DNA from: Streptomyces akebiae
Lineage (GTDB): Bacteria > Actinomycetota > Actinomycetes > Streptomycetales > Streptomycetaceae
Direction of reading: 5' to 3'
Assembly: GCF_019599145.1 (NCBI RefSeq)
Contig: NZ_CP080647.1
Coordinates: 1,364,001-1,428,000 of the forward strand
Length of the DNA stretch: 64,000 nt
This document shows positions 2,596-36,604 of the stretch, one piece after another (the first letter of the stretch is position 1; each line of letters begins with the position of its first letter). The position numbers and the translations under genes were made by a program. Below the pieces are notes generated by a model. It saw only the letters and a program-made list of their open reading frames with translations, was not told the DNA's origin and ran no database searches.

Positions 2596-2701
2596 ACGGG
2601 TCACAGATCGGCTGCGGCTCTGATCTACGTCACACACCCCCTTTAGTCGTCTTGCGGCAAATGCCGCGCTTTCCGCGGGGGTTGTCCGCGATGATGGTGG
2701 G

Positions 2702-11055: not shown

Positions 11056-14000
11056 CTACCTGCGGCCGACGCCGCTCGGGGCATTCTGCTGCCCGTGAAG
11101 CCGGTGCTCGGCCTGCTCTCGCTCGGCCTGTCCCTTGCGGGTCGGGCGAGGCCCTGCTGGGGCAGTGCCTGCGGAACGCTGCGGCGCCGCGGCGACCGCC
11201 TCCTTGGCCGCCTCCATAGCACTTGCCAGCAGATCGTCGGGGATCTGCGCCCCCCGCGCCTGGGCCGTGGTCCGCAGCGCCGCAAGGAAGGCCTCGGCGG
11301 TCAGCCCGGCCTGTGGAGACGCCGGCGGTCCGCCAGCGGGTGCCGCTCCGGCGATCCGGTCAGCAGTGGCCCGCGAGTTCGCCGCGATCGTCTGCAGGAC
11401 TCCCGCTGCCCGTTCCTCGGCCGGGCTGGTCGCGGCAGCCCGCGCGAAGTCCGCGCGGTCCTGCATCCGTTGAGCCTGAGCTGCGAACGTGCTCGCGGTG
11501 ACCGCCGACCGGTTTCCCTCGGTCGGGGATGGCTGCCGTCGCCGTCCGGCAGCCGCCTGCTCGATCTTCGACGGACCATCCGTCGGCGCCTGGCGACGCC
11601 GACGCGGCAGCTGCGGCCCCGCAGCGGCCTGCTCTCCCTCCGCCTTCACCTGCCCGCTGGCAGGCGTCGGCGAGGCTGCGGGAGGCGCGGCCTCCCGGAG
11701 TACCCAGTCCCTGTTCGCCTCGCCCCGCACGTAGGCGAAGCCCTCGCCCGCCAGGTGCTGCGGCACCTCGTCGCCGCGGCCCTGCAGGAAGAGCTCGACG
11801 CACTCGTTCGCGCGCCGGCCGGCGTCCGTCCGGTTGCCCGGGCGCGCGTTCTCGTGGTTGAGCAGGCTCATCAAGTCCCGGCGGGACAGCCCGCGATCGG
11901 GCTGGACGTCGCGCCGTATGGCGGTCCTGACTTCCTCGAACCAGGCCTGGCTCAGCGGCTCGTTGACCGGTTGCCATCGCGGCGCGGGGGCGTTGGCCGT
12001 CGGGGTCGCGTCCAGGATGCGCGCCGCTTCGTCAGGCGTGACCAAGACGTTCCGGACGCCTCCCTCGCCCTGGGGCCCGACGACGCCGAGTTCCTCCATG
12101 CGTGCCAGCGTGACGTCGGCCAACCACGGCGAGATGCCGTAGTCGTAGCTCAGGTCCAGGGCCAGGGTGTACTCCTTCGCCGCCACCTGCAGCACGACCG
12201 CACGGAACCGGTCCGGATCGCCCGCGAGGCTCTCACCAATCGGTGCCGGCTCGGCCTCATCGGCGGAGCGCCCCTCGGGCGATGGCGCTTGCGGTGCCGT
12301 CTCCTCTCCCACCGCGGGCGTCTGCTCGGCCGCCTCGTCGACCGCGGATTCATAGCTGCCGAGCGGGGTGCTCACTTCCTCAGGCAGGTGACCGTGAATG
12401 TGGCTGATGTGGTCTTCGGCGGCATGGCGCAGTACCCGCAGCAGGTTCCACCGCAGCCCGTTTTGCTGGCCGTTCGCGGCCAGCCGGTTGATCAGAGCCT
12501 GAGCCCCGGACGAAATGATCTCCAGCGTTCGAACCCACAGCGCTCGGCCGGTGCCCAGCGTTGTACGGTCCGCCATGAAGCGGCCCACCCCGAGCCAGCC
12601 CCTGTTGACGGCCTCGCGCACCGCTGACCACACGGAGGCGATCCGTCGCCACACCGGATGCTGCGCCAGGCTCCCAAGGCGCTCCGAGGCGGCGCCGTAG
12701 AGGCGGCCGATCGACTCGACGCTGTTCGACAGCATCGCACGCATACGGCCCTGGTCCTCACCGCCCGTGCTGTTCCCCGTGCCCTGGCGCCGGGCGGCGA
12801 GCCGCTCGGAGAACCACTGCCAGGCGCGGCCCAGTTGGTCGGCCAGGTCGATGCGCTGGCCGGCGGGCAGCAGCCCAGTCAACCGGTCTGCTCGGGTCGC
12901 GGCGGCCCGGTGAAGGCCCCATACCGCCCGCCAGCCACGCGAGTCCCGCTGGCCCGACCGCTCCAGGCGCCGCGCCAGGTGCATCGCCGCATGGGAGATG
13001 GCCCGCGCCGTACGGGCTTCGATCGTCCGGTTGATGCCGTGCGCACGGATGTCGCGAAGGGTCGTCTCCCCGTAGGTCAGCAGCGCCTCCCGGACGGCTC
13101 CTCGAAGCTGCTGTCCCGCCTGGCCGATCGATCGGATCATCGTCCATTCGGGGGTGCCCCAGTACTGACCCGCCTCGGCCTCTGCGTTGCCCATCGCCGC
13201 TTCGAGCGCGGTGGCGTCACCGGCCTCGACCGCTGGATCCTCCGCCGTCGGCAGGATCGGATCTGCGTCGATGCTCGTGAGGATCTCGGACAGCGCCTGA
13301 CGTGTGGCGGCGTACTGTTCCCGCAGCCGCTGTTCGTCCTCGGCACTAAAACGCGGCCGCGGTATGGAGGCTTGCGTCTCGGCCGGAGGCTCAGCGCTCC
13401 GCAACAGGGCGACGATGTCCTCGAAGTGCCGGTCGAAGTCGTCCTGCCCCGGAACCTCACTTCCCGTGACTGCTTCGGCCGCAGCCATGCGTTCCTCCTC
13501 GATCAGGGCCTCGTACTCCCGGTCCACTTCCATCGCTGCCAGTTCCTCAGCGGACACCGGCTCGTCTTCTGCCTCGGTACGGCGGCGAACGCCCTCTTCC
13601 GGGTCCGGCTCCCACTCGGCGCTGCTGTAGACGACGCCGTTGACGACCAGGTCATCGCCGATGACGTCCCTGAAGAAGTCGAAGTCGTCGCCTTCCTGCT
13701 CCGGCGGCGCCTCCGCGGGGCGTGTGGCGGCTGGTTCGGACTCGGCAGGAGTCTCGGGCTCGGACACGGCAGGGGCCCGATCGGCCACGGTCTCCTGCAC
13801 CGGCTCGTCCTCTGTCTCCGGCAGCTCGACTGCGCCGACCGTCTCCGGCTCATCCACCGCAGCCGGCCCGGAGCCAGCCACAGCGCCCACCGGGACGGCG
13901 TCAGTCTCTGCGGCTGGTGCCTCATACGTCGTCGCCGACTCGATCTCCTCGACAGCGTTCTTCGCCTCATCCGCAGACACCGTCTCGGATGGTCCGCCGA

Positions 14001-17000: not shown

Positions 17001-20000
17001 TGGGGGCGGCAGTGATCTCGGCCTGCGGGGTATCCGCGATGTGGCCGATGGAGTGGATCCAGCCGAGGGAGCCGATGTCGAGGCGTTTCCTGGCCCGGGT
17101 CACCGTCACATAGGCCAGTCGCAGCTCGTCCTTGCCGGGCAGGACGAGGTCGCCGGTCTTGGTGTCCTCCTTGGGCTGGGGGAAGTCGCCCCAGATCTGC
17201 ACCACGTCCCATTCGCGGCCCTTGGACTTGTGGGCGGTGGAGACGACCAGCTCCGGGCGGGTCTCCTCGTCGCGTGCTTCCTCCGGGACCAGGTCACGGA
17301 TCATGTTGATCAGACCCTGAGGCGTATAGCGGTCGACGAGCCGTACGAACATCTGCAGGGTGCGCGCGTCCTCGTCGGATTCGGCGTACTCCTTGACCTC
17401 GCTCCAGTTCTCGAAGGCCGACAGCTCAGGGTGCTTGGTTCGGCGGCCCTGTTGGAGATCCCGGGCGGCCCGGGCGATGTCTTCGATGTCCCGGCCGCCG
17501 CCGACAAGTGCCACGCGCTTGCCGGCCTCGAATCCCGCGAAGACGGCGGAGATGGCGCCGACGTTGGTCCGGGTCAAGATCGCATCGGGTTCTTCGACGG
17601 TGCCGAGGGTCGTATCGAGCGTGGGCGCGCCCTCCAGACGGAGGTCGGACTCCAGGAGGGCGAGGTATTCGTTGCCCACCTCTGCCACAGCAGGGCCGAA
17701 GCGCCAGCTCTGCGTCAGGGGCAGGACCACGTCGGCCGGCCAGTCCTGCAGAGCATCGATCGCCCCACGGAATTCGTAAATCGCCTGATTGCTGTCGCCG
17801 ACGACGATGATCTGGGCGTCCTGGTCCTGGATCACCTTCTTCAAGACGGGATTGATGTCCTGTGCCTCGTCAAAGAAGATCGTGTCGAAGTTCAGGCGCG
17901 GCTCCGACAAGGCCCAGATCTTCAGATAGTCGTCATGGTCGAAGAAGATCTTGTTGCTGTTCGGATCCGCGATGTCCGCCCAGGCCCGGCGGGCGTACTC
18001 CAGCAGCGTGCGCGCGGCGGGGACGTGTGCCCACTTCTCGCCGAGGTGCTGGCGCCCCAGTTCGGAGTCGGCGCTCTGCCGGTAGCGTCGGATCGCCCCC
18101 ATCACGATCTTGGCGATCTCCTCGGGACCGACGTACTGGATGTTGCCGTCGCGGTCGCCGACGCGCACCTCGGCGGTGATCCCGAGCGCAGCCGCGACGT
18201 CCTTGGGGCGCCGGGCTCCGCTGTTGCGCGAGCCGGCGATGGAAACCTTGTGCCGGTAGGGAGTGTTACGCAGATCCTGCAGTGCGAAGGAGTGGCTCGT
18301 CCGGGCGGTGACGTTGCGGCCGAACTTCTGGCCTGCCTCGTCGGCGATGGCCCGGTTGAAGGCGATGTAGCCGATGCGCCGTTCCAGCATTTGGGAAGCG
18401 ATCATCACCAGCGTGGACGTTTTGCCGGTGCCCGCGAGGGCCTGAACGGCAACGTTCTTGCCTTCCACCGCCGCGGTGATGATCGCCTGCTGTTGGGCCG
18501 TGGGCGGGTACTTCCCACTGGCCACGGCCGCAACCGCGCCTTCCTGAGCGTCCCTGGCCGCGAGAAAGGCCCGGACTTCCTCCAGGACCTGCTCCTTCTG
18601 TCCGCGCATGCCGTTGTAGCGCCAACGGCCCTTCTCGTACTTGAAGTTGCGATCCCGCTTCAGCAGGTCGCGAAGGCCGTCCTCCGCCGGGGCGCCCGTC
18701 GTGCCGGTGACGTAGGTGCCGGTGGCGTCACTGACGATCTTGATCCGGCTCGTCCAGGGTCCTTCGGCCGCCGTCTCCGGCTCGGTCGCCGTCACGCTTT
18801 CCTCCTGTTGCTGCTCATCGGCCGGGGCCGTCGGCGCAGGTGCGGGTTCCTGTGCCGGAGCCGATGCGGCTTTCCCCTCTTGCCCGGGGCTGCTGGGGCC
18901 GACGTGACCGATGACGATGCGGTCGCCGAGGGCGCCGATCAGGTCCTGCAGGGGCGCGGTCTCTGGCTGGGGCTGGTCGGCGCGCTGCTGGGTATCCCGA
19001 GCGGGCACGCCCGCGGAGGGGCCGTTCTGGGCGGCGAGCGGCAGCCGGTCCAGGGCCTGCGCGTAGGGCAGCCGGACGAGTTCCTCCACCTGCTCCCAGG
19101 TCAGTCCGCCCTCAAGTGGCAGCAACCGGGCATTGGTGCCATGCAGCAGGTCACGGGGGAACACCGCGTACCCGGTCTTGGAGGTGAGGTTGAGCTCACT
19201 CTCCGGGGCGATCAGGACACCGTGCAGTACGTCGCCGTACTGCCGGTCTTCCTCAGCCGCCTGAAGCAGGATCACGGCGTCGGGGACCACGCCTTTGGCG
19301 AAAGTGAGGTTGGCGACCACTCCGAACTGAATCTCTGCGTCGTCCGGGGGGCGTTCGTTGTAGCGCGGCAGTGAACGAAGGTGCTCTCGGGTCAGCGGTT
19401 CGACGGCGGTACTCAACGCCTCCTGAGAGCCGACGAGTTCCGGCCGGGCTGGAGTGACCCGCTGCGGAGCTTCAGGGGCGGCCTGCTCCGGGCCGGCGGT
19501 CATCGCTGTGGAATTCTGCTCCTCGGTCTGGTTCCCCTGATCTGCAGAGACAGGGTTCTCCGTCGGGACGAGCGCCTCCGGCGCGTTCTGGTTGACCTCA
19601 TCTGCGCCGGTCACGGGCAGGCGCCGCAGCGCTTCCCCATGCGGCAGGCCAACCAGGGACTCGACTTCTGCCCAGGGAATCGGGCGGGAGAGCGGAAGGA
19701 CCCGGGAGTCGGGCAGGAACAGCAGCTGTTCCGGAGTCCACCGGGCATCCCCGCTGCTGACGACGTGACCGTTCGCCGGCACGATCTGCGCCCCGTACAC
19801 GAGGGGGGCGTCGCCGAGTTCTTCGTCATCCTCCACTTGTTGCAGCAGCAGAAGCGCGTCGTGAACCTGTCCGTTCCGGAAGGGCAGTGTCGCCAGCACG
19901 GCGAGACGGACGTCTTCACTGGGTCGGTGCTCCGGGCCACGGGGCAGCGAGTGCAGGTGCTCTTCTGTCAGGTAGGGGCCGGTGAGCGTGCCGGTCGGGG

Positions 20001-23000
20001 CGTCGTTGACCGCCTGTGCCGAGGGCTCGGCAGGGTTCCTGTTTCGCGGCGTACTGGTCTTCTGGCTCTCGCTCGCGGCAGATGGTGTCGACGATTCGGG
20101 CGGCGGTACGCCGGCTTGGCGGGCTGCGCCTGTTTCGGTGGGCTGATCGGTCGACGCTGCGGACACGGCCGCGTACACCTGCTCGAAGGCATTTCCCGCG
20201 TACTGTTCCTCGACGCCCTGACGGTCGTGGCGGAACCAGTCCGGGAACCTGTCTCCTCCTGAGCCTGTTGCCGACAGATCGGCGCTGCTGAGCCAGTCCA
20301 TGAACAACTGGCGGGCTTCCTCGCGGGATCGCCCGTCCACGAGCAGCGCCCGTAGAGGGTCATCCGCGAGGGCTGCTCGCACCGCTCGTTCCCGGGCGTC
20401 GTCGCGCATCGCGGCGGCCCAGCGGGCGCTCTCGGCCTGGGCTTCGGCACGCTTCCGCTCGCGTTCGCTCTCAGCGGGCGAGGCGGCCGGCTGCTCATCG
20501 GGGACGGAGGGGCCGGGCTCTTGCGGCGCGGGTTCCACGGCCTGCTCACGCAGCTCCCGGTAGGCACGGGGGCCTGCCAGGTCGAGGACCTCCCGGCGTC
20601 CGTCTTCCTTGAGGTAGGTCCACAGCAGGTGTTCCGAGCCGCCATCCGTGATCAGTTCGTCGGCGGCGGCTGCGAAGACAGCGAGGAAGTCGGCCTGTTC
20701 GTTGGCGTGCGCGGCATGGATCAGAGCCCGGTTCTCGCTCGCCACGCTCACCAGCCAAGCCGCGACGTCCTCGGGGGCTGGAGCCATGGAGTCACGCAGC
20801 AGATCACGGACCGTCCCCTGGATCACCGCGCGTACGGCTGGCGTGTTCCAGGCCGGTGCTACCGAGCTGTCGGGCAGATGCTCGCTGAGCCACGCGTCGA
20901 CCTCCTCGTCGGACACCAGCGAGTCCGTGAGTTTCGCCGGTCGTACCAGGAGGGGCAGCGCGGTGTGAGCGGGCAGTGTCAGCCCTGGTATATCGGCCGC
21001 GAGTAGGTCGGGAACCTCCTGGGCGGCGCCGGTCTGCTCTGCCGGGATGGCGACGTTGACCAGCAAATGCCCTGCAGCACTCCTGGCCGCCACGGTGATC
21101 TCAACGCGTCGCTGCTGCACCTCTTCCCGTCGATGCGCAGCCGCGTGTCCGGCGCCCGTGGTGGCGCCTTCTTCCCCGGTCGGAAGGGGAGCCTGCTCGC
21201 TCTCAGGTGCGTCGGGCTGCGGTGGGCTGCTCGGAGCCGCGGGGGGCTCTGGTCCGACCGGCTTCGAGAGTTCGCCCGCGGTCTGTGCTGCTGCGAGGGC
21301 GGGAGTCCCGAAGATCTCCTGCCAGTCCTCTCCCTGTTGGGCGGTGGCCGTGATACGTGAGGCCAACTGCACGGCGTGCTGCTTCATCGTGCGGAAGTGA
21401 GCCATCACCACGGGCGCCCGGTATCGCTCCTCCTCCAGGTTCTGGGCGAGGACCAGGATGGCGCGGGCGAGCTTGGTGCAGCGCTCGACCATGGTGTCGG
21501 CCGGATGGGTGAACGGATCGCGTACCAGCCCCACCGGTCCGTCGCACAGTTCCTCCATCGCCAGCCATACCGCCTGGCCGTCCGGTCGGGTCTGCACTCC
21601 CTGGTCTGTCAGGCCCCGTCCGATCAGGCGCCGGCCCGCCGGGGTGTCCTTCAGCCCCGACAGTGCCCCGTACATCTCCCAGAAGTCCTGCTGGGCCTCC
21701 CCCAACGACGCGTACGGCTCGCCAACGGAGATGACGATCTCGGGCGCCGTCTCCTGCTGGGGCTCCTCCACCATGCGGTAGGAGCGGCCCATGCGGGTCA
21801 GCTCGTCCGTCAGATTCCGTACGTGGAGGTCCCGGGTGGGCCGGCTCATGTTCCGCCGCAGGTACCAGAATTGCTGGTTGCGACTCCACCTGAACTTGTG
21901 GCGGTCCAGAGCAGCACGCACGGGCGCGTCGGCGTCCTGGCTGGTGGTGCCGCGGACCACCGTGCCCCGGTAGTGGTGCTCGATCTCCAGGGTGGTGCCG
22001 GTGGACGGAGCGGCCTGCTGCGGCTCGGGGACGGAGCCGCGTTCGGCGTCGAGCCGCTGACGGCGCTGGGCCACGCCAGCCCGCACGGCAGCGACCGTCT
22101 CCGGCCGTGCGGTGGAGGCCCGACAGGCGACCGCGTGTTCGTAGCAATGGCGGACGAGGTCGTCCAGCCGTTTGGCGTCGTCGGGATGACGGTAATCGCT
22201 GGCGCGCAGGCTCAGCACCAGGTCGTACGCTGCATGTGCCATCGCCGTCACACGCCGGTTGACCTCGTCCAGGGTCTCGGCGGCTACCGTGACGAAATCG
22301 ACCGCGTACTGGGCGTCCCGGGCCGCGTCGAGGGCCGCGCGCGCGGCGGATTCCTCAGGCGTGCTGTCGAGGAGCGCCTTGGCGGTGTCGCTCGCCATCC
22401 ACCAGTTCCACGCGGATTCTGCCTTGTTGGCTCCGCCGACGAAGGCGTCGGGATCCTCGTACGGGGGCTGTTCCAAGCCCAACTCGTGGGCTGCGAGGCG
22501 CTGGTGGTGCTGGAAGGTCTTGCGGGCCAGGTCCCGCAGCGCGTACCTGCTGACTCCGTCCCCGGCAGCCTCGGCCTCCTGCGCGGCGCCGAGGGCGTAG
22601 GAGGTGACCTCCATCCAGTCGGTCAGGGCTGAGGCGACCGTGTCGTGCGGCCGGTGCAGCATGAGCATGGCGCCGCGCAACTGGTCCGAGTACGGACCGC
22701 CGTGGTCGTCGTAGGCGTGCGGCCACTTCGGGAAGCCGTCGAAGATGTCAGACAGTGCACGGCCGATCTCGGCGCTGTCCTGGTACCAGGGAGCTGTCAA
22801 CCGGAGCGGGTCGTGGTGGTGCAGGACGGCAGGGTCGTCGTTGGCGAGATCAGCTGCGTGCATGAGCAGGTCGGCGAGGTCGGCTCGTCGTGCCTGCATG
22901 CGGGCAAGGTGACGCTCCGTGTACTGGGCGGCCTTCTGGGCCGCTGTGCTCACGTCGTGACGGGGGTCGTCGGCGAGCTGCACGGCGGCCTCGGCGAGGC

Positions 23001-26000
23001 GGTCGTAGAGGGTGAACACCTCGGCAGGCGTGCGCGGTTGACTCTCGATCACCGCCGCGGTTGCTGCGGCGGCCTCGTGGCGTACTGCCGCCGGGGCCGG
23101 GGTGTCGCTCTCGTGTCGTACGAGGACCTGCCGGAACTGCTCGGCGGCCAAACCCACGTAGTGGCGCCCACCGGCCAGTTCCGCGGCGTCCGCGTAGCCT
23201 TCGAGCACGATCGCGAGGTTCGCCACCTGGGGCAGCACGGAGCCGAGGACGTCCTCTGTCCCTTCCACCGGGGTCACCAGCGCGGTGGAGGATGTAGACA
23301 CGGGAGTCTCGGCCTCGTGATCCGGCTCCGGTGAGTGGGCGGCGCTGGCCTCTGGTTGCGGTTCCGGCACAGTCGCAGCGGCGGAAGAAGGCGCCGGGGT
23401 GCCCGGTTGTGCCGTGGCCAGCTGAACGGAGAACCGGTCGCCGCCGGGGCCGGAAACCACGAGGCCGTCCTCGGTCTCTTCCAGGTCCGTGCCGTCGGCG
23501 GCGAGTTGAGCCAGGCCAGCCGCGAGGTCACGGCCACTGACCGGACCGACGAGGAGGCCCTTGGGCCCGGCGACGGTGTATTCGTCCCACGGGAGGATGC
23601 CGGGGATGAATTCCAGGGCGTCTTCGTCGAGCGTGAGGGGTTCCGGGGAGCTGGCCCACTGCTGGTAGGCGTCGCTGCTGGGGTCCTCCACGGTGCTGCG
23701 GTACCGGGCTGCGTGGTCGCGCAGTGCGGTGTATATCTCCCAGTTGCCCTCGGTGCTCCGGCCGTCTTCTCGCTCCCACTGTTCGACCACGGCACGGCAT
23801 TGGTCGGCGAAGCGCTGAAGGTGCGTCCACTCGGGTGCCAAGTCCATGCCGAGCAGGCGGGCGATCCGGCCCGTCCGGCTGGCGGCTATCGCGGTTTCGG
23901 CTGCCGCGGCCAGGGCGTCCGCTCGCTCTCCTGTCGCGAGGCGCCGGGCGTTGTCCGCCGACCAGCGGCCGTAGGCGGACAGGGCCACCTGCTCGGCGGC
24001 CCAGTACTCGGACCGGTCGGTGTAGGGCGCGTTCGGCGCGCGCCAGGGTCGCTGGGCGTTGGCGGCTGGGGTCGTCGCCGGGGCCGGCTCCGCATCGTCT
24101 GTGCTCTCGGGGGTTTCCCGTGCTGCACGGGCGCTGTCCGCACGGTGCGCGCTGCCCTGATCGTCGCCTCCTGCCACCGGCGGGTTCTCGGTCGGCTCGG
24201 CTACGGGCGTGGATGCCGCGTCACCTGGTGTCTCTTCCGCTGCGCGTGTGCGGGGTCGCGGTGGGGCATCGGCCACTTCGGCGTCGGCCGCGACTTCCTG
24301 CGGTGTTCGGGATTCCGGCTGGGGCCGGTCGGCCGTGTCCGGGTGGGCCCAAGAGGAGGTCTCATAGAAGCGCACCCGCATCGCCTGTCGGAAGGCGGCT
24401 TCGATTTCATCACTGGTCAGGGTGGCTTTCAACGCCGCTGCCGGGCCGTCGAGTTGGTCGGTCAACCAGGCGTCGAAGAGGTCACCGGCCTGGCTGCCGC
24501 TGGCGCGCAGGGCACGCTGTGCGTCTTGGATGAGCTGGTCGATGGCCGCCTCGTGTGCCTGGGCGACGCCGGCAGGGAACTCCTTGGTAAGCGGTGTGAC
24601 CTTCACCGACCCGATGGGGCCGGTTATCACCACCGCGCCCGTGGCGTCCGGTTCGACAGCTACGTCCGACCCTTCGTGGCCGAGCTGCACAACGATGTCG
24701 TTGAGGAACGTGCCGCGCGAGTCGCTGAGCGTCCCGCCGTTCATCGTGTGCTGGTACCAGCGCTCCCGGTCGAACGGTCCGCTGGCATCGTGCGCCGGTG
24801 CCGCTGGGCGCGCTGGAGAGGGATCGGCGAGTGCTGGCGTCTGCGGCGTGGAGCGCAGCACGTGCTTCAGCGGTGCGGCGCGCAGGGTGTGCTCGTTGGC
24901 GGCCCGTGACACCTGCTCGGTACGGTCCCGCATCGCTCGCCCGGCCTCGTTGGGCTTGAACATGGGGGAGTCCAGGTGGGAGAGGAACTCCTCGCTGGTG
25001 CGCGCGAGATCACGGCAGAGGTCCAGGGCCCAAGGGTCGCTTCCGGTCTCAGCGCCCTCGGATGCTGCCGCACGCGCGTCCCGCACAGCGTGGGCCAGTG
25101 CGAGTCCGGCTTCCTCCATCTGGCGGGCCAGCTCTTGGCCACGGCCGCCCATCCCGTTGACGACGTCGAGGTTCTGCCAGGCGCCGAAGGCGGCCAGCAC
25201 TGCGTCTTCACCTGCCTCGGCGGCGGCTTCATCGGCGTACGGCGGCGGGTCCGAGGCGAAGCGGCCAGGTCCTGCGCCCGCAGCCGGCCCGCTGTGTGCC
25301 GACGTTCCGGCCCCGGAGCCGGCGGACGGGGCAGTGGGGCTGCCCCCAGCACCCGCGCCGTCGGCCAATGCGTCCAGAAGGCCGCGGGTGGTGTCACTCA
25401 GGTCGGCAGGCGTGATGCTGGCCGGATCGACCTCTACCCAGCCGTCGGTGGAGCCACCAGCCAGGACCATGGCGTCGTGGACGGCTGCATCGACCAGGTC
25501 GGCGCCGGGTTCGGTGACCCCCGCGTCGTGGACTTCCGGCTCGTTCGCTTCCGGGGGTCCCTGCACGCCGAGGGCTTTGGTCAGCTTGCGGTGCTGGGCC
25601 TCGATCTCGTCGAGTTCAGCTTGCTGCGGGAAGGGCTTGCCGACCAGTTCCTTAGCACGCGCGATGTTCGTCTCGATACGGGCGATGTGCTCCTGCGCTT
25701 TGGCGTGGACGGTTTCCAGGGTGTCCAGCGTGTTCTCCAGGCGTCGGATCAGACCGACGCGGTCCTGGTTGGCCAGTCCGCTCGCGGTCAGCCGCACCTC
25801 GTCGACGGGAGCGCCCTGGAAGGCGACCTCGACATACATGCCCTCGAAGGAACGCCGTGTGACGGCAAAGACCGGGAAGCCGCCCAACTCGCCGACGACG
25901 GCGTCCTGCTGCATGCCGGTGCCGACCGACGAGCGGGCAAGCCGTTCCAGCCGCTGGGCCAGCGCCTCGCCGGCCTCGCGGCGTTCGTCGAATGTGCGGC

Positions 26001-29000
26001 CGCCGACCGTCATGGTGAAGGCGTCGCCGCGGGTGTCGGTGCGCCGCTGCATGGCGGTCGCGGCCTCCTGCATGCGGGCCCTGAGGTCTTTGACGCGCCG
26101 CTGCCCCTGCTCGCCCGTGATCTGGTACGCGAACTGCTCGTCGTGCCACATCTGCTGTTCCAGGCGTAGCTTGGCGAGCCGGCCCTCGACGCGCTCCAGC
26201 TGTTCGAGTTCGGGCTTGTCCGCGGCGACGGCGAACATGACGCCGGCGGGGATGCGGCCGTCGTCGCCGTCCTCGGCGGCTTCCAGGATGCGGCTGGTGT
26301 CGTTGACGTCGAGGATGGCCTCTGCGAACGCCTGCTTGGTGGCGACCTTCTGCCACAGGAAGGGGTCGTAGGACTTCTTCGTGACGATGGCGGTGTGGTG
26401 GATCGCCTTGTTCTGGTTGCCCTGGCGCTTTCCTCGCCCAAGGCTCTGGATGATCGGTGTGGCCTTCCACGTGGGGTCGATCTGCATCACGTGGATGACG
26501 CGCTTTTGCAGGTTGCGGCCGGTGCCCAGGCCGGAGCGGCTGCCGACCAGCACGGCGACCCGTCCTTCGCGGGCGTCCTTGTCGAGCCGGGCTTTCTGCT
26601 GCGGGTTCTTCGCTTCTTGGTCGAAGCGGATGAGGCTGCCCGGCATGCCGCGGGCGGTCAGTGCCTCGCGCAGCGCCTCGTAGAAGACGAACTCCTTGTC
26701 CGGGCCGGGCACGCCGAGGTCGCAGAAGGCGAGTTGCAGGCTGCCGCGGTTGGTTTCCTCGTTGCCGTCGTCGTCGTAGTAGACGTCGTCCTTGTGCAGT
26801 TGCCACAGCCGGAACAGTTCGTCGGCGGCGACGTCGACCTTCTGGGCTTCGTCGGTGGACTTGTTGACCAGGCGCACGTCGAGCGAGGCCAGGCGCCCGT
26901 CGGTGGAGATCCACAGGGTGTTGTCCTCGACCCGCTTGCCCTTGCGGTTGAACTTCAGGTCGGGCTGGCCGAGGCGGATGCTCATCATGCGCTGGCCGAG
27001 CTGTTGCATCACCTGGCGCAGTTCCGGGGAGGCCTCGGCTTCCAGGATTCGCATCTCCCCGCCGATGATGGCGGGCTCACCGAGTTGGAGATCGCGCTTG
27101 AGTTTGACGTCGGCAATGCTGAACAGCACGCGCTTGAGCTCGGTCTGGTTGACGTACCGGGCGTAGCGGGCGCGGGTGGAGAAGGAGTTGCCGTCCGGGC
27201 TCATCTCGACCCGGTTGACGGGCTGGATGAAGGTGGAGACGAACTGGTCGTCCTCCTCGATGCCCCACTCGTCGCGCAGCAGGTCGGGGGCGTTGTACTT
27301 GATGGCGGTCAGGATCTCCATCGGGCTGTTGTCCACCGGCGTGGCGGTGGCCTGGGTCGTCACCCGGCCGCCGTAGTTCTTGCGCAGGTAGGACAGTTTC
27401 ATGTCCATGTCTGCGGTGATCTGGTTGCCTTCGAGGGCGAGTTCGCGGATGGAGGAGATCACCCGGAGGTTTTTCAGGGTGTGGGCTTCGTCGTAGAAGA
27501 TGTAGGTGGAGCCGGTCCGTTCGAACTCCACACCCGAGTCGCCCGGGGTCTTGAGTTCGTCCTCGATCCGCCCCTTCAAGGTGGCGATCTGGTTCTCGAT
27601 GTCCTTGACGGTGTACTTGTCGCCGCCGTCGGCGTTGTCCAGGTGCGCCTCCAGGCGCTTGACCTCCTGGTTGATGTAGTCCAGGCGAGCCGCTTTGGAC
27701 ATCGGGATCTTTTTGAACGCGGTGTGGCTGATGATGACCGCGTCCCAGTTACCGGTCGACCAGCGGGCGACGAACTGGTGACGGCGCTCCCCGGTGAGGT
27801 CGGAGGAGTCCGCGACGAGGATCCGGGCCCGGGGGTAGGCCTGGAGGAACTCGCGCTGGAACTGCCCCAGGACACCCTTGGGTACGGCGTAGACAGGCTT
27901 CTTGGCCAGGCCCAGGCGGGTCAGTTCCATCCCGCCGACGATCATTGAGAGGGTCTTGCCGGCGCCGGTGCCGTGGTAGAGACCGACTCCGTGCTTGGAG
28001 GCACGGATCCGGGCGACCGCCGCTTTCTGGTGGGGGTGCAGGGTGTAGGCCTTGGACAGTCCCGGGGCCGTGATCTCAACGCCGTTGTAGTTCGGGGGGA
28101 CGATGGCGTTGTAGCGGTGGTTGTAGTACCTCAGGAGGATTTCAGCCCGGTCGGGGTCTTCCCAGAGCCACATCCGGAAGCGGTCATCCAGCTGCTTGGA
28201 CTTGGCCAGGGCAAACGCTGTTGCCTTCTGGTCGGTCACCACCGGGCCGTCGGGGGGCAGTTTCTTGGTGACGACGATTTCCTGGTTGTTGAGCAGGTTG
28301 CTGGCCAGGGCCTGGGCCGAGCGGGCCTGGGTACCCCAGACGGTGCGGGCCATCAGGCTGCTCGCGTCGCCGCCCTTGACGCTCCAGCGGGCGCCGAGGT
28401 TGCTGACCTGGATGTCGTCGTCTTCCAGGATCTCGCGCAGGAACTGCTGCACGTACTTGGCGCCGATCCAGGCGGCGCCGAGCCGGCTCTCGATCTCGGC
28501 AGGCTGCAGGTCGCGGGGAATGACCTCGCGCAGGGCGTCGACGTTGACGGCGTATTTGGGGTCTTTGGCCGCGGCCTTCTCGGCCGCGGCGAGCTTGCGG
28601 CGGACGTTGCCCGACAGGTACTCCATGCGGCGGACCAGACCGCCGTCCGGGTCGTCGTAGACGAGGGTGCCCAGTGCCTCGCGCGCCGCCTGTTCGCTGT
28701 CCAAGCCGAGCAGAGCAGCCACCGCATCAAGGCGGATCTCGTTGTGCTGGTCCCAGCAGATCAGCGCGGCGTCTTCCGGGCTGTCCGCACGGGTCAGCGG
28801 ATCCGGTGGGGCGACGACCCGCTTGGCGAACAGGTCGGCCTTCTTCGCCGTCTGTGTGTCCTCGTCGAAATTCTCCAGCGCGAAGACGTAGGGGGCGAAG
28901 GGGTCGTTGCGGAACCCGCCCATGCGCGGGTAGGTCCGGCGCTCGGTTGCGTCGTCGTCCTGTGGCGCCTCGGTGGAGGGGCGGTTACTGACTTTGAAGC

Positions 29001-30861
29001 GGTTGATCGGGCCGAACCGGGCCGCGTAGGCGTCGTAGCGGCGGTTGAGTTCGGCCCGCAGCTGCGTCATACGCGGGGTGGTGAGGTGGTTCTCGGACTC
29101 CTCATCGAGCAGGGCCACCGCGATGTCGCGTAGGCCGATCAGCTCGCGCAGTTCCCGGGCCTGTGTCTTAGCGGGCACGTGCGGAACGGGCCGGCCGTTG
29201 CGGATCTCGGTGAAGGTGCCCTCGGGGCCGAGTTCCAGCAGCCCGTCGTACTTTTCCAGCGTCCCGTGGAAGACCATGCGCTCGGTGAAGGTGCGGCCCG
29301 TCTCCTGGGCGCGCTGTGCCACCTGGTCCAGGGCGGCGGCAAGGGCGGTGTCCACCGGCTGGTCCGCTTGGACGACGAGATCGGGGCCGTGCCGGACGAT
29401 GTCGGCTTTGGGTGTGCCGAGCACCATCTCCGGGTGCTGCACGAAGTAGTTGTTGATCTCGATGGGCTGCGGTGCCACACCGGTCCGGGATCCGGGCAAG
29501 ACGGTCGGCTCGATGTCCAGCCAGTCGGCTTCGGCCGGTGGCTCACCGTCAGCCCGACGCCGGAAGACGAGCATGTCGGTCACGACCGGTGTGCCGGCGG
29601 CCTCCTGGTGGGCTCCGCTCGGCAGCCGGACCGCACCCAGGAGATCACCGAGGGCGGCCATCCGCTCCCGGGCCTCCTGGTGGGTCTGGTCGGTGCCGTC
29701 GAGGGTGTAGCGGCTGGTGATCAGAACGACGATGCCGCCGGGCCGGGTGAACTCCAGGCTCTTGAGGATGAAGTGGTTGTGGATCGAGTGGCGCCGACCG
29801 GGGTTGTACTTCGAGTCCCGGACCTTGTACTTGCCGAACGGGACGTTGCCGACCACGACATCGAAGTCCTCCTCCGGTGGCCGGGTGTCGGCGAAGGACT
29901 CGGTGAGGATCTGCGCGTCCGGGTAGAGGGCGCGGGCGACGGCCGCGGTGATGGGGTCGACCTCCACGCCGACGATCTCCGCGTCGGTGGGGGCATCTGC
30001 AAGGAAGCGCCCAGCGCCCACGCCGGGTTCCAGCACCCGCAGTTTCGCTCCGGCTGGGACGCCGAACCGCTGCAGGGCCTGCCAGACGACCCGGGCGTAG
30101 GCCGGATCGGTGTAGTGCGCGTTCAGGGTCGAGGCCCGGGCCTTGGCGTACTCGTCGTCCGACAGGACTTCGCGCAGGTGGGCGCGTTCGGCCGCGAACG
30201 TGGCGGCGAACTTCTTGCGCTCGTCGAACAGGTACGGGGTGGCGCCCCAGCCCGTCCACTGCTGGAGCACCTGCCGCTCGGCCTCGGTGGTCGGCCGGTT
30301 CTCCGCCCGCAGCCGCAGGACGACGTGTACGGCCGCGATGTTCGCGGCGACCCGCTCCCGCTCCGTACGCGGCCCAGTCCGTGTTATTCCTGGTCCGGCT
30401 CCACGTCCAGGAGCACCCTCTCCCGAAGCACTTCGCCCTCCGCCTCCAGCCGGGAGGTGTTCAGCCGCTGCAGGCGCTGCAGGTAGCCCTCCCCTTCCGG
30501 CTCCTGGCCCGCCAGCGCCCGGGCCCGCGTCTCGATCTCCGTGGCGATCTCCTCCCCGAGTGCCGTGAAGAACTCCTCCGGGTTCTCCAACTCCGCGAAC
30601 GCCTGGGGCTTGTTCTCCTTCCAGTGCGTCATCGCCTGCTCGCCGTACCGATTCATCCTCGAACTCCCCTGCCGACTCAGCACTGTTGGACCTGGTGGAC
30701 GGGGTCGGGTGCCCCGCCTCATCCTCTCCCGCCGCCGGGCCGTCCGGGCGTGCCGCAGCCCCTCCCCGCGCCGGAGGATCCTGGGCGTCGAAGTCCAGGC
30801 CGGGCAGGAAGCCGCTGTCGTTGATCGAATTGTCGTCGGCGGGCTGCTGCGGTGTACTCAA
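11056..30861 (-). CDS. Giant methylase/SF2 helicase/UvrD helicase protein of a conjugative element (about 6,600 aa)
   Basis: About 6,601 residues if translation starts at TTG 30861 (GGGAG 6 nt upstream). Order of domains: acidic disordered N-terminus; N6-adenine-methylase-like Rossmann domain with LEPGVGAGRF (about 275) and GNVPFGKY (about 340); SF2/SNF2-like helicase with YHGTGAGKT (about 963), IFYDEAHTLKN (about 1120) and QSLGRGKRQGNQNK (about 1475); long A/P/E-rich linkers with helical modules; an accessory module ending in FRWSRNQQFWYLRR (about 2990) with a second version at about 4065; a ~122-residue duplicated module (about 3630 and 3822); a UvrD helicase with ALAGTGKTST (about 4140), FFDEAQD (about 4327) and VTVTRARKR (about 4588); and an FtsK-gamma-like winged helix (about 6213-6280). 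It resembles DarB-type DNA-processing/protection proteins and probably handles DNA during transfer. The start is uncertain: GTG 30270 is the next in-frame option. Confidence 0.85.
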   Translation of the reverse strand: MSTPQQPADDNSINDSGFLPGLDFDAQDPPARGGAAARPDGPAAGEDEAGHPTPSTRSNSAESAGEFEDESVRRAGDDALEGEQAPGVRGVGEPGGVLHGTRGGDRHGDRDAGPGAGGPGAGRGGLPAAPAAAEHLPAGGGGRSASGEGAPGRGAGPGITRTGPRTERERVAANIAAVHVVLRLRAENRPTTEAERQVLQQWTGWGATPYLFDERKKFAATFAAERAHLREVLSDDEYAKARASTLNAHYTDPAYARVVWQALQRFGVPAGAKLRVLEPGVGAGRFLADAPTDAEIVGVEVDPITAAVARALYPDAQILTESFADTRPPEEDFDVVVGNVPFGKYKVRDSKYNPGRRHSIHNHFILKSLEFTRPGGIVVLITSRYTLDGTDQTHQEARERMAALGDLLGAVRLPSGAHQEAAGTPVVTDMLVFRRRADGEPPAEADWLDIEPTVLPGSRTGVAPQPIEINNYFVQHPEMVLGTPKADIVRHGPDLVVQADQPVDTALAAALDQVAQRAQETGRTFTERMVFHGTLEKYDGLLELGPEGTFTEIRNGRPVPHVPAKTQARELRELIGLRDIAVALLDEESENHLTTPRMTQLRAELNRRYDAYAARFGPINRFKVSNRPSTEAPQDDDATERRTYPRMGGFRNDPFAPYVFALENFDEDTQTAKKADLFAKRVVAPPDPLTRADSPEDAALICWDQHNEIRLDAVAALLGLDSEQAAREALGTLVYDDPDGGLVRRMEYLSGNVRRKLAAAEKAAAKDPKYAVNVDALREVIPRDLQPAEIESRLGAAWIGAKYVQQFLREILEDDDIQVSNLGARWSVKGGDASSLMARTVWGTQARSAQALASNLLNNQEIVVTKKLPPDGPVVTDQKATAFALAKSKQLDDRFRMWLWEDPDRAEILLRYYNHRYNAIVPPNYNGVEITAPGLSKAYTLHPHQKAAVARIRASKHGVGLYHGTGAGKTLSMIVGGMELTRLGLAKKPVYAVPKGVLGQFQREFLQAYPRARILVADSSDLTGERRHQFVARWSTGNWDAVIISHTAFKKIPMSKAARLDYINQEVKRLEAHLDNADGGDKYTVKDIENQIATLKGRIEDELKTPGDSGVEFERTGSTYIFYDEAHTLKNLRVISSIRELALEGNQITADMDMKLSYLRKNYGGRVTTQATATPVDNSPMEILTAIKYNAPDLLRDEWGIEEDDQFVSTFIQPVNRVEMSPDGNSFSTRARYARYVNQTELKRVLFSIADVKLKRDLQLGEPAIIGGEMRILEAEASPELRQVMQQLGQRMMSIRLGQPDLKFNRKGKRVEDNTLWISTDGRLASLDVRLVNKSTDEAQKVDVAADELFRLWQLHKDDVYYDDDGNEETNRGSLQLAFCDLGVPGPDKEFVFYEALREALTARGMPGSLIRFDQEAKNPQQKARLDKDAREGRVAVLVGSRSGLGTGRNLQKRVIHVMQIDPTWKATPIIQSLGRGKRQGNQNKAIHHTAIVTKKSYDPFLWQKVATKQAFAEAILDVNDTSRILEAAEDGDDGRIPAGVMFAVAADKPELEQLERVEGRLAKLRLEQQMWHDEQFAYQITGEQGQRRVKDLRARMQEAATAMQRRTDTRGDAFTMTVGGRTFDERREAGEALAQRLERLARSSVGTGMQQDAVVGELGGFPVFAVTRRSFEGMYVEVAFQGAPVDEVRLTASGLANQDRVGLIRRLENTLDTLETVHAKAQEHIARIETNIARAKELVGKPFPQQAELDEIEAQHRKLTKALGVQGPPEANEPEVHDAGVTEPGADLVDAAVHDAMVLAGGSTDGWVEVDPASITPADLSDTTRGLLDALADGAGAGGSPTAPSAGSGAGTSAHSGPAAGAGPGRFASDPPPYADEAAAEAGEDAVLAAFGAWQNLDVVNGMGGRGQELARQMEEAGLALAHAVRDARAAASEGAETGSDPWALDLCRDLARTSEEFLSHLDSPMFKPNEAGRAMRDRTEQVSRAANEHTLRAAPLKHVLRSTPQTPALADPSPARPAAPAHDASGPFDRERWYQHTMNGGTLSDSRGTFLNDIVVQLGHEGSDVAVEPDATGAVVITGPIGSVKVTPLTKEFPAGVAQAHEAAIDQLIQDAQRALRASGSQAGDLFDAWLTDQLDGPAAALKATLTSDEIEAAFRQAMRVRFYETSSWAHPDTADRPQPESRTPQEVAADAEVADAPPRPRTRAAEETPGDAASTPVAEPTENPPVAGGDDQGSAHRADSARAARETPESTDDAEPAPATTPAANAQRPWRAPNAPYTDRSEYWAAEQVALSAYGRWSADNARRLATGERADALAAAAETAIAASRTGRIARLLGMDLAPEWTHLQRFADQCRAVVEQWEREDGRSTEGNWEIYTALRDHAARYRSTVEDPSSDAYQQWASSPEPLTLDEDALEFIPGILPWDEYTVAGPKGLLVGPVSGRDLAAGLAQLAADGTDLEETEDGLVVSGPGGDRFSVQLATAQPGTPAPSSAAATVPEPQPEASAAHSPEPDHEAETPVSTSSTALVTPVEGTEDVLGSVLPQVANLAIVLEGYADAAELAGGRHYVGLAAEQFRQVLVRHESDTPAPAAVRHEAAAATAAVIESQPRTPAEVFTLYDRLAEAAVQLADDPRHDVSTAAQKAAQYTERHLARMQARRADLADLLMHAADLANDDPAVLHHHDPLRLTAPWYQDSAEIGRALSDIFDGFPKWPHAYDDHGGPYSDQLRGAMLMLHRPHDTVASALTDWMEVTSYALGAAQEAEAAGDGVSRYALRDLARKTFQHHQRLAAHELGLEQPPYEDPDAFVGGANKAESAWNWWMASDTAKALLDSTPEESAARAALDAARDAQYAVDFVTVAAETLDEVNRRVTAMAHAAYDLVLSLRASDYRHPDDAKRLDDLVRHCYEHAVACRASTARPETVAAVRAGVAQRRQRLDAERGSVPEPQQAAPSTGTTLEIEHHYRGTVVRGTTSQDADAPVRAALDRHKFRWSRNQQFWYLRRNMSRPTRDLHVRNLTDELTRMGRSYRMVEEPQQETAPEIVISVGEPYASLGEAQQDFWEMYGALSGLKDTPAGRRLIGRGLTDQGVQTRPDGQAVWLAMEELCDGPVGLVRDPFTHPADTMVERCTKLARAILVLAQNLEEERYRAPVVMAHFRTMKQHAVQLASRITATAQQGEDWQEIFGTPALAAAQTAGELSKPVGPEPPAAPSSPPQPDAPESEQAPLPTGEEGATTGAGHAAAHRREEVQQRRVEITVAARSAAGHLLVNVAIPAEQTGAAQEVPDLLAADIPGLTLPAHTALPLLVRPAKLTDSLVSDEEVDAWLSEHLPDSSVAPAWNTPAVRAVIQGTVRDLLRDSMAPAPEDVAAWLVSVASENRALIHAAHANEQADFLAVFAAAADELITDGGSEHLLWTYLKEDGRREVLDLAGPRAYRELREQAVEPAPQEPGPSVPDEQPAASPAESERERKRAEAQAESARWAAAMRDDARERAVRAALADDPLRALLVDGRSREEARQLFMDWLSSADLSATGSGGDRFPDWFRHDRQGVEEQYAGNAFEQVYAAVSAASTDQPTETGAARQAGVPPPESSTPSAASESQKTSTPRNRNPAEPSAQAVNDAPTGTLTGPYLTEEHLHSLPRGPEHRPSEDVRLAVLATLPFRNGQVHDALLLLQQVEDDEELGDAPLVYGAQIVPANGHVVSSGDARWTPEQLLFLPDSRVLPLSRPIPWAEVESLVGLPHGEALRRLPVTGADEVNQNAPEALVPTENPVSADQGNQTEEQNSTAMTAGPEQAAPEAPQRVTPARPELVGSQEALSTAVEPLTREHLRSLPRYNERPPDDAEIQFGVVANLTFAKGVVPDAVILLQAAEEDRQYGDVLHGVLIAPESELNLTSKTGYAVFPRDLLHGTNARLLPLEGGLTWEQVEELVRLPYAQALDRLPLAAQNGPSAGVPARDTQQRADQPQPETAPLQDLIGALGDRIVIGHVGPSSPGQEGKAASAPAQEPAPAPTAPADEQQQEESVTATEPETAAEGPWTSRIKIVSDATGTYVTGTTGAPAEDGLRDLLKRDRNFKYEKGRWRYNGMRGQKEQVLEEVRAFLAARDAQEGAVAAVASGKYPPTAQQQAIITAAVEGKNVAVQALAGTGKTSTLVMIASQMLERRIGYIAFNRAIADEAGQKFGRNVTARTSHSFALQDLRNTPYRHKVSIAGSRNSGARRPKDVAAALGITAEVRVGDRDGNIQYVGPEEIAKIVMGAIRRYRQSADSELGRQHLGEKWAHVPAARTLLEYARRAWADIADPNSNKIFFDHDDYLKIWALSEPRLNFDTIFFDEAQDINPVLKKVIQDQDAQIIVVGDSNQAIYEFRGAIDALQDWPADVVLPLTQSWRFGPAVAEVGNEYLALLESDLRLEGAPTLDTTLGTVEEPDAILTRTNVGAISAVFAGFEAGKRVALVGGGRDIEDIARAARDLQQGRRTKHPELSAFENWSEVKEYAESDEDARTLQMFVRLVDRYTPQGLINMIRDLVPEEARDEETRPELVVSTAHKSKGREWDVVQIWGDFPQPKEDTKTGDLVLPGKDELRLAYVTVTRARKRLDIGSLGWIHSIGHIADTPQAEITAAPTPAAVAAETPAAPEPPLPQTSPAVTETAPPADVVPEQQPDRAVTEAAEEETAVSVRQPAPVSAEPSAPTPTDDTENTTQAVTEPTTQPESGSEEQRKTTAPTLQDPGEPLNGADQPSLFVGQADNTPVDEQTTTPAAVQDADAGIAPLPWDDQKIKKRGTAGIRRGQKKEIPNLAREMREALGDNQVRDVWEQDNPWAQFEENLRHTQDELAQSDSALSTLVTEAAEQLRTKIDQLAAEAFNAFETLIQARADDPDQLAELDAQLAEAHRLPELTDPLVRQALILCLEAVDTIERTARSSKLRAAAARDALEQVMGLAGTSYSPDGQQMWPNVDAALAPVKVEVDRARERIAELSNSTVTEQYARLRALIAAHEAQPDAQAQTVDTPAPAPEAENTSEPPAPAAQEERTPDPLTDRDIGAALAKISPFDFGQLIFEMDQKKRKTPQLYEGWIRLPSEPGYNEEGNEFASAYSRSGAIEIEVKTSDDVMAPVRAGRLTLAKVIAWFRPALPPERRRLVAAAWRTGNAMSRSERGFEVIGEFRRWKAADDEVRRILQDAQARVMTEALEAHLTGTADERLAQIRAAENWVQEEQQLQLIDFGAMEEAFVDIAALERVTALRAVLPDRRNSICRLSEVKPGDCITGVSQERLPFIVRERPVVTEGTEVSLVGDLVAGPGDLRPYTWETGRDPDDTVEPLLLPESLAGLVDVPADGPHPVAAPVQADAPVEAAPPAAEGVPQTAPSAAGSATTEPDTATGPEEVSDAPEQQPQAPAAAEATDPAPGVDTGASKQAPQSGPAAPTGQDVPDATSGVQATDPARGTDTPPAQTPYRLLEEFLTDLYVTEQRYKAWAASATGQSLLSEAHELQEETGLADSNEAALVQTAFRGVALAATSTSPSGDHVLDACRNLQSTVAEAGRSLASRRAFASDEDRQLLLAVYGQGQEQLARLEATGDVQRLLDSQDDGAWAQAAEDVRRRLGAENDDSWLLTRYKEARPSEQRTVGGPSETVSADEAKNAVEEIESATTYEAPAAETDAVPVGAVAGSGPAAVDEPETVGAVELPETEDEPVQETVADRAPAVSEPETPAESEPAATRPAEAPPEQEGDDFDFFRDVIGDDLVVNGVVYSSAEWEPDPEEGVRRRTEAEDEPVSAEELAAMEVDREYEALIEEERMAAAEAVTGSEVPGQDDFDRHFEDIVALLRSAEPPAETQASIPRPRFSAEDEQRLREQYAATRQALSEILTSIDADPILPTAEDPAVEAGDATALEAAMGNAEAEAGQYWGTPEWTMIRSIGQAGQQLRGAVREALLTYGETTLRDIRAHGINRTIEARTARAISHAAMHLARRLERSGQRDSRGWRAVWGLHRAAATRADRLTGLLPAGQRIDLADQLGRAWQWFSERLAARRQGTGNSTGGEDQGRMRAMLSNSVESIGRLYGAASERLGSLAQHPVWRRIASVWSAVREAVNRGWLGVGRFMADRTTLGTGRALWVRTLEIISSGAQALINRLAANGQQNGLRWNLLRVLRHAAEDHISHIHGHLPEEVSTPLGSYESAVDEAAEQTPAVGEETAPQAPSPEGRSADEAEPAPIGESLAGDPDRFRAVVLQVAAKEYTLALDLSYDYGISPWLADVTLARMEELGVVGPQGEGGVRNVLVTPDEAARILDATPTANAPAPRWQPVNEPLSQAWFEEVRTAIRRDVQPDRGLSRRDLMSLLNHENARPGNRTDAGRRANECVELFLQGRGDEVPQHLAGEGFAYVRGEANRDWVLREAAPPAASPTPASGQVKAEGEQAAAGPQLPRRRRQAPTDGPSKIEQAAAGRRRQPSPTEGNRSAVTASTFAAQAQRMQDRADFARAAATSPAEERAAGVLQTIAANSRATADRIAGAAPAGGPPASPQAGLTAEAFLAALRTTAQARGAQIPDDLLASAMEAAKEAVAAAPQRSAGTAPAGPRPTRKGQAEREQAEHRLHGQQNAPSGVGRR
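12010..12215 (-). other. FtsK-gamma-like winged-helix domain inside the giant protein
   Basis: Near the C-terminus, a ~66-residue stretch begins DRFRAVVLQVAAKEYTLALD. It continues with YGISPWLADVTLARMEELG and VVGPQGEGGVRNVLV. FtsK/SpoIIIE gamma domains, which read polar KOPS/SRS sequences, share the pattern of a helix, a recognition helix with alternating hydrophobics, then MEE-x-G-x-VGP...R-x-VLV. The assignment is by pattern only. Confidence 0.6.
19030..19394 (-). repeat. Second copy of the ~122-aa internal module of the giant protein
   Basis: Encodes a module that begins LTREHLRSLPRYNERP and ends YAQALDRLPLAA. It matches the copy encoded at 19,606-19,971 in order and spacing of its conserved residues: an opening LT-x-EHL-x-SLPR, a middle DA-x-LLLQ, and a closing W-x-(Q/E)-VE-x-LV-x-LP...AL-x-RLP. 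The two copies are separated by ~210 nt of low-complexity linker, so this is a diverged tandem duplication inside one protein. Confidence 0.75.
19606..19971 (-). repeat. First copy of the ~122-aa internal module of the giant protein
   Basis: Encodes LTEEHLHSLPRG at its start and GEALRRLPVTG at its end; it pairs with 19,030-19,394. The module has no function I recognise. Its regular alternation of hydrophobic strands suggests a compact alpha/beta fold. Confidence 0.75.
30384..30656 (-). CDS. Small conserved conjugation-operon protein, paralogue of 30931-31254
   Basis: 90 residues from the ATG at 30656. It begins MNRYGEQAMTHWKENKP and is acidic and helical, ending DVEPDQE. Its paralogue two positions upstream begins MNSYGRAALAHWREHLP, and the shared MN-x-YG...A-x-x-HW-(K/R)-E head supports this reading frame. 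The giant frame is open through the same DNA in the -1 frame and has no ATG/GTG/TTG between this gene's start and position 30,270. The giant gene therefore either starts upstream and fully contains this gene, starts late at GTG 30270, or is joined to this gene by frameshifting. The function is unknown. Confidence 0.7.
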   Translation of the reverse strand: MNRYGEQAMTHWKENKPQAFAELENPEEFFTALGEEIATEIETRARALAGQEPEGEGYLQRLQRLNTSRLEAEGEVLRERVLLDVEPDQE

Positions 30862-30930
30862 CGCCTGCTCCCAACGTCGAAAAGGGCAGTTGCGTGCATC
30901 AGGGCCCAAGGGGGCTGCTCGTGGGCTGGG

Positions 30931-31254
30931 TCAGACGGGGGGTGGCGGTGCGGCGAGACCAGGGGGTGCGCCGTCCGGGGAAGGCTCGGCGGGTGGGCGT
31001 ATGAGCTTGCGGAGCACGAGCTGTTCGGCCTCGTCCATGACCGCAAGGAGCCGGACGGAGCGCTGTTCGCCGGTCTCACCGCCGACGGGCGTGCCTGCGA
31101 GGACCATCGCGTCCGTCAGTTCCCCGGCTTGCCGCTCGGCCTTCTCCCCGAGACGGGTGAAGTACGCCAGCGGGTCCGGCAGCATCCCGTACTGGCCGGG
31201 CAGATGCTCACGCCAGTGGGCCAGAGCGGCGCGCCCGTAGCTGTTCATGACCAT
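30931..31254 (-). CDS. Small conserved conjugation-operon protein, paralogue of 30384-30656
   Basis: 107 residues from the ATG at 31254 (GAGAG 6 nt upstream); the ATG two codons later (31248) aligns exactly with the paralogue's start. The sequence begins MNSYGRAALAHWREHLPGQY, has a charged helical middle (FTRLGEKAERQAGELTDAMV), and ends in a proline-rich tail. No enzyme motif or membrane segment was found. It lies between the DUF4913 gene and the giant gene in the conjugation operon. The role is unknown; a structural or adaptor function is a guess. Confidence 0.75.
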   Translation of the reverse strand: MVMNSYGRAALAHWREHLPGQYGMLPDPLAYFTRLGEKAERQAGELTDAMVLAGTPVGGETGEQRSVRLLAVMDEAEQLVLRKLIRPPAEPSPDGAPPGLAAPPPPV

Positions 31255-35071: not shown

Positions 35072-35073
35072 CG

Positions 35074-36573: not shown

Positions 36574-36604
36574 AACTACTCCTGGTCGTGCGACGGGACG
36601 GGCA

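Follow-up and report, generated by a model that had tools for sequence, protein, structure and literature searches.

A TnpV-like gene nested out of register near the 5' end of a DarB-type giant gene: a probable dual-coding antirestriction module of a conjugative element in Streptomyces

Our analysis of a 64,000-nucleotide stretch of Streptomyces akebiae DNA (the window, part of a 10.26-Mb contig in a genome of 10.55 Mb) suggests that this locus probably serves a conjugative element, resident in a chromosome of the Streptomyces type, as a dual-coding antirestriction module, in which one gene would encode a giant DarB-type polyvalent protein and a second gene, nested near the 5' end of the first, an acidic TnpV-like protein. 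On a wider scale, we consider it highly probable that an actinobacterial branch of DarB-type genes carries, within the sequence for the giant's N-terminal part but in another register, a complete TnpV-like second gene of 89-185 codons, which selection on both frames keeps in place, and that the pair is one dual-coding anti-defence module with the acidic small protein working with the giant or regulating it. The giant belongs, as might be expected, to a class already published, and the apparent novelty sits at its 5' end. The features of the pair are the following.

30931..31248, minus strand: another copy of the TnpV-like small gene (105 aa), separate from the nested one and immediately upstream of the giant (HMM score 46 bits)
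11056..30861, minus strand: giant polyvalent protein, 6,601 aa with its start at TTG 30861; about 6,440 codons (11056 to ~30390) with visible selection
30384..30656, minus strand: nested TnpV-like gene, 90 codons and a stop; starts with ATG, AGGGGAG upstream, in the +1 register relative to the giant frame
25540..30360, minus strand: DarB-type core of the giant, N6-adenine methylase and SWI2/SNF2-type SF2 helicase, residues 184-1790 (PHROG 10089, Pfam Eco57I, motifs)
19021..20190, minus strand: tandem duplicated unit of about 190-200 residues each, residues 3574-3775 and 3766-3963
17050..18579, minus strand: UvrD-class SF1 helicase, residues 4111-4620, with motifs Q, I, II, III, IV, V and VI all present
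11920..13509, minus strand: C-terminal region, conserved in five relatives and in part also in the giant of a Kitasatospora plasmid, with a weak FtsK-gamma-like stretch near residue 6269

The minus strand from 11056 to 30909 is a single stop-free frame of 6,617 codons counted from the first TTG, and its codon-position GC content (0.74/0.50/0.84) gives a strong coding signal; the TTG at 30861, which a sequence-only reading of the same DNA had taken as the start, is in frame and has GGGAG upstream. That reading's description of one uninterrupted frame of about 20 kb is thus borne out, and the assembly fusion of neighbouring genes that it had raised as a concern was rejected as very unlikely, because equivalent frames are found in five other genomes. 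In two of these, of the same genus, the DarB-type core is 92% identical and the frames measure 6,550 and 6,535 codons (295 genomes were searched including the window's own, 26 of them with any match); on three more Streptomyces contigs the frames are 6,323, 6,909 and 6,744 codons long, with the UvrD part inside them at 91-96%. Within its own genome, the DarB-type core has a single match.

As plain coding sequence, the giant frame holds from residue 174 onward, where pairwise comparisons between the window and its two relatives G095 and G141 give a dN/dS of 0.08-0.17 for the methylase/SF2 part and the UvrD part, with values elsewhere, linkers included, not above 0.43. It does not hold for residues 17-173, where the same comparisons give 0.87-1.74, and third-position GC falls to only 0.40-0.60 across residues 81-200. 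Both anomalies at the N-terminus arise because a second gene, in another register, covers residues ~84-174. Upstream of this nested gene, residues 17-83 show a dN/dS of 0.87-1.31 and no third-position excess in the window, and in the absence of purifying selection there the start codon of the giant is unproven.

The nested gene came to light through a small protein encoded upstream of a Micromonospora giant, which matched the window inside the N-terminal stretch of the giant frame, in the other register. Matching loci number 193 in the genome collection, and among the best 80 of these the small gene is present in 79; in 77 it keeps the same register, and the giant frame crosses it and continues beyond without a stop. 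The exceptions are L090 (a separate small gene), L145 (in frame) and L139 (no small gene). These loci are related and were chosen by similarity, and given the kinship of the 80, probabilities that assume independence overstate the case. Nesting was also seen in 12 of 13 loci on viral contigs, one of which (L166) is a weak partial match. It is not universal: the small gene is absent from all six comparison plasmids (three from alphaproteobacteria and one each from Lactococcus, Campylobacter and Gordonia). In an earlier set of 23 loci, the giant frame continues upstream of the small gene for more than 1 kb, stop-free and coding-like, in nine, and stops short of the small gene's upstream side in five, namely three of eight plasmid giants, L056 and the Kitasatospora giant L025. 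One actinobacterial-looking copy (L129) lies on a contig labelled Vibrio cholerae, which is probably mislabelled or a contamination.

The coding status of both frames was assessed in the 72 loci where no more than 450 nt separate small gene and core, leaving out L088, L089, L126, L134 and L136, where the distance is greater, and the three loci named above, which are not nested. The giant frame is open across the small gene in all 72, compared with 11.7 expected by chance if the small protein is recoded with the codon usage of the core and 23.3 if synonymous codons are permuted within the gene, while the third frame is open in none and holds 5.6 stops on average. Since openness in the giant frame exceeds these expectations of 12 to 23 loci and the third frame is never open, both genes appear to be translated. 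A non-redundant set, clustered at 60% identity, gives the same picture (42 of 42 open, 6.6 expected), and stops in the giant frame are avoided at the level of codon context: none of 361 T-ending codons of the small genes is followed by AA, AG or GA, as against 21.0% of 3,548 in the core. For its part, the small gene begins with ATG or GTG in 70 of the 72 loci and is preceded by a ribosome-binding-like site in 67, where control positions have one in 34%; the nested gene of the window has such a site of its own. In 44 of 50 pairs, which are non-independent, the small gene shows less synonymous divergence than the core (mean ratio 0.75).

A simpler explanation would be that the giant starts just past the small gene and that the open frame across it only follows from high GC. 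A giant-frame codon in the +1 register begins with the third base of a small-gene codon, which is GC-rich, and chance openness is thus not rare; residues 17-83 lack visible selection, and the NCBI annotation of Arthrobacter pA48BH1 begins the helicase after TnpV. We nevertheless regard this as quite improbable, given the openness of every locus and the complete lack of T-ending codons in stop-forming context that the core shows at 21%. Moreover, past the stop of the window's small gene no ATG, GTG or TTG occurs until 116 nt on, already inside the conserved core; in Micromonospora zamorensis, the sole upstream start is one that overlaps with the stop of the ArdC-like gene before it, and in nine of the 23 loci coding-like giant-frame sequence lies upstream of the small gene. 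The same shortage of canonical starts between small gene and core in the window could suggest that ribosomes enter the giant frame from the small gene through a programmed frameshift and so make a fusion of TnpV and giant. Giant-frame stops, however, are absent throughout all 72 small genes, and not just at their ends, and the frame runs on more than 1 kb upstream in those nine loci, and we judge it more improbable still. The reading that we prefer is that of two complete genes overlapping on the same strand.

If the nested gene is translated as the statistics indicate, it would be an example, in bacteria, of a same-strand overlap that is both long and widely kept, and the locus offers a clear test case both for overlapping genes and for the roles of TnpV-like proteins beside antirestriction giants. 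A precedent for the arrangement is comS of Bacillus subtilis, a small gene that lies out of register inside the giant gene srfAB; the likeness is in the nesting, and the proteins are unrelated. The annotations of nested loci that we inspected give either a TnpV or hypothetical protein with a giant that starts later, or the giant with no small gene. The overlap of the two genes seems to be new, as a literature search with most subscription papers outside its scope returned no description of a TnpV-like gene overlapping a giant, and neither TnpV nor the word "overlapping" occurs in the main text of the study that describes the polyvalent proteins (Iyer et al. 2017, PMC5512222).

The family to which the small protein belongs is suggested by matches to TnpV (PF14198) with an E-value of 0.1 or lower in 26 of 50 cases (2.5e-5 at best; 0.04 for the Micromonospora copy) and by the NCBI naming of many homologues as TnpV. 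Its copy in the window has no match to that family and, unlike TnpV, is nested in another gene. The small protein is acidic, with a mean charge of -14.4 and a negative charge in 72 of 72 loci, and is predicted to fold into four helices (pLDDT 92.2). The charge suggests a possible DNA-mimic fold, but the model matched nothing in the PDB at E up to 0.001. In the giant frame, the overlap encodes a low-complexity linker, of which Gly, Ala, Pro, Asp, Glu, Arg and Gln make up 79% on average.

Turning to the giant, the sequence-only reading had recognised an N6-adenine methylase-like domain, an SF2 helicase and a UvrD helicase in a protein of the DarB type set in a conjugation operon, and profile searches, among the checks it had proposed, agree with it, finding all three, with their motifs present. 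The DarB-type core matches the PHROG family named for DarB-like antirestriction (PHROG 10089, residues 32-1791, 1084 bits) and Pfam Eco57I (4.9e-6), with methylase motifs I and IV (VLEPGVGAGRF at 292, GNVPF at 354) and, in the SF2 helicase fused C-terminal to the methylase, the motifs GTGAGKT, DEAH and QSLGRGKRQG. These are conserved among relatives, with GNVPF or GNVPY in 71 of 71 aligned and a Walker A ending in GAGKT in 70 of 70 with tabulated variants. No solved structure matched the core at E up to 0.01. The UvrD block matches PHROG 1967 (helicase, residues ~4133-4612, 312 bits) and Pfam UvrD, and its closest solved relative is the F-box helicase FBH1 (8e-40, versus 1.5e-6 or weaker for UvrD, PcrA and Rep), from which the giant differs in having no F-box in a Pfam scan at E up to 0.01. 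The FtsK-gamma-like module of the sequence-only reading could not be established: PF09397 scores 12.4 bits (E 0.14) against a curated Pfam cut-off of 30.6 bits, and a fold model of the C-terminal part is unusable (pLDDT 39).

The size of the giant, which had been thought larger than those known, is no novelty. Eight plasmid giants, all with both the core and the UvrD block in one frame, measure 5,177-10,905 aa as annotated and share little sequence with our giant outside these blocks, and a Kitasatospora plasmid carries an open frame of 12,126 codons (L025:7092-43469; core 35%, UvrD block 63%, middle block 36%, C-terminal block 26%). A prototype of 12,242 aa, OJH72069.1 from a Streptomyces viridifaciens plasmid, is described as a polyvalent protein with UvrD in the main text of Iyer et al. 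(2017), which also treats the methylase-SWI2/SNF2 dyad of the polyvalent proteins with DarB as its archetype, names LPD36 as an N-terminal domain of the DarB-type members and notes a UvrD-like helicase within the same giant protein in a few actinomycetes. With its methylase motifs, C-terminal SF2 helicase, further disparate domain (UvrD), and T4SS and relaxase genes in what is probably the same element, our giant is a further member of this class, with an architecture already in print. It shares with the published UvrD-containing proteins the adenine methylase, the SWI2/SNF2 and the UvrD-like SF1 domains in one giant actinomycete protein in a conjugation setting, while it is shorter than the prototype, lies on a chromosome and is overlapped by a TnpV-like gene that is absent from that paper's main text. 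The likeness to DarB of phage P1 lies in the archetypal dyad and the PHROG family that carries its name; DarB, however, is a phage protein for which no UvrD is mentioned in the passages considered, whereas the setting here is conjugative. A close UvrD inside the giant frame (4,060-6,909 codons) is found in 5 of 20 genomes drawn from the best 80 loci and is absent from the other 15, and the UvrD fusion is therefore a sub-branch.

The conjugation genes around the giant are these, followed by the more distant DUF1173 gene.

39703..40890, plus strand: cell-wall-enzyme-like transfer-region protein (NlpC/P60 and lysozyme-like matches below cut-off; 59% to a protein of the S. chartreusis plasmid)
36605..38173, minus strand: conserved transfer-operon gene with no Pfam match
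35074..36942, minus strand: SCO6880-family conjugation protein (59% to a protein of the S. chartreusis plasmid)
33689..35617, minus strand: conjugation ATP/GTP-binding protein (Pfam AAA_10 just below cut-off; 70% to a protein of the S. chartreusis plasmid)
31875..33884, minus strand: VirD4/TraG-type coupling protein (TraM recognition; Pfam TraG-D_C 7.5e-24; 55-61% to eight large plasmids)
31277..31882, minus strand: conserved DUF4913-like protein (match below cut-off) adjoining the coupling protein
6331..7632, minus strand: DUF1173 protein; the S. chartreusis plasmid likewise has a DUF1173 gene close to its giant

The coupling protein and transfer genes upstream of the giant are collinear with the transfer operon of the giant linear plasmid of S. 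chartreusis. Eight plasmid records hold the closest relatives of the coupling protein and include seven Streptomycetaceae plasmid giants; seven of the eight are typed non-mobilizable and one mobilizable. Six large plasmids have an annotated toprim-domain giant after the UvrD giant, and a search of our own genome with the first 1,500 residues of one plasmid's copy, run with no positive control, did not find one. On one large Streptomyces plasmid, a second giant of 4,569 aa (L018:30563-44272) with DnaG-like primase and toprim matches follows the UvrD giant, and in this toprim giant FtsK-gamma is clearer (E 1.8e-5), yet still below the Pfam cut-off.

Seeing no separate relaxase in the operon, the sequence-only reading had proposed that the giant may carry part of the relaxosome or stand in for it. 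The first part is true within the window, where the relaxase families PF03432 and PF08751 have no match, and this, together with the MOB-suite call of three giant-bearing linear plasmids as non-mobilizable, could speak for a relaxase function in the giant. We find such a function extremely improbable, and the proposal fails on three counts. A search of the giant for relaxase domains at E up to 0.01 found none. About 33 kb from the giant, at window coordinates -26615..-21792 (G000:C1:1337386-1342209), lies a 1,607-aa relaxase of the TrwC/MOBF type with an AAA_30 helicase domain; its block is shared with two relatives at 89-91% protein identity, and the cargo between relaxase and giant is variable. 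Finally, a circular Micromonospora zamorensis plasmid with a similar giant has its own Relaxase-family protein (PF03432, E 4.9e-7). As the TrwC relaxase lies outside the window, the missing relaxase of the operon is an effect of the window's edge. Shared synteny suggests that relaxase and giant probably belong to one element; the synteny with the two relatives reaches about -77 kb in window coordinates, element borders were not found, and the stretches scanned for border tRNAs contained none. That the left flank is plain host chromosome was dropped once the relaxase was found there.

We return to the probable role of the pair as an antirestriction module. In the proposed mechanism, the SWI2/SNF2 motor would move the adenine methylase along the incoming element DNA so that restriction sites become modified, the FBH1-like UvrD helicase would act on the transferred single strand, perhaps stripping RecA, and an acidic four-helix TnpV-like protein would be made from the gene nested near the giant's 5' end and might act jointly with the giant. 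Fission yeast Fbh1 has been shown to disrupt Rad51 filaments (PMC4148199), and the FBH1-like nature of the UvrD block thus suggests, by analogy, a possible role in removing RecA from the transferred strand. The likely function would be protection of incoming conjugative DNA in the recipient, as the sequence-only reading had also supposed. Action on incoming DNA in the recipient is a published proposal for the polyvalent class (main text of Iyer et al. 2017), and protection of the transferred strand is a plausible prediction here; darB genes also appear in an anti-defence survey of leading regions (PMC11541004).

Alternatively, the chromosomal copy could have been domesticated and be used by the host against incoming elements. 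Such use is proposed for some host-encoded polyvalent proteins in the main text of Iyer et al. (2017), the locus sits on a contig of 10.26 Mb, and a variable block with restriction-like genes adjoins it. The coupling protein, the transfer operon and the relaxase, however, are all kept and conserved, and we consider domestication unlikely.

The variable block beside the giant includes a CHAT-domain protein (L013:1908-5243) and an Mrr-type restriction endonuclease (L013:7622-9103). At window coordinates -5460..1006, a three-gene cluster ending in an N6-methylase gene (a 705-codon open frame) looks like a type I restriction system, of which only the methylase was tested; the cluster is conserved in G141 and was not found in the stretch of G095 that was compared. 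Two separate UvrD-helicase genes, at 2702-6252 in the window and at L013:9442-13427, each adjoin a large gene with no assigned family, an arrangement that we take to be reminiscent of Gabija-like pairs.
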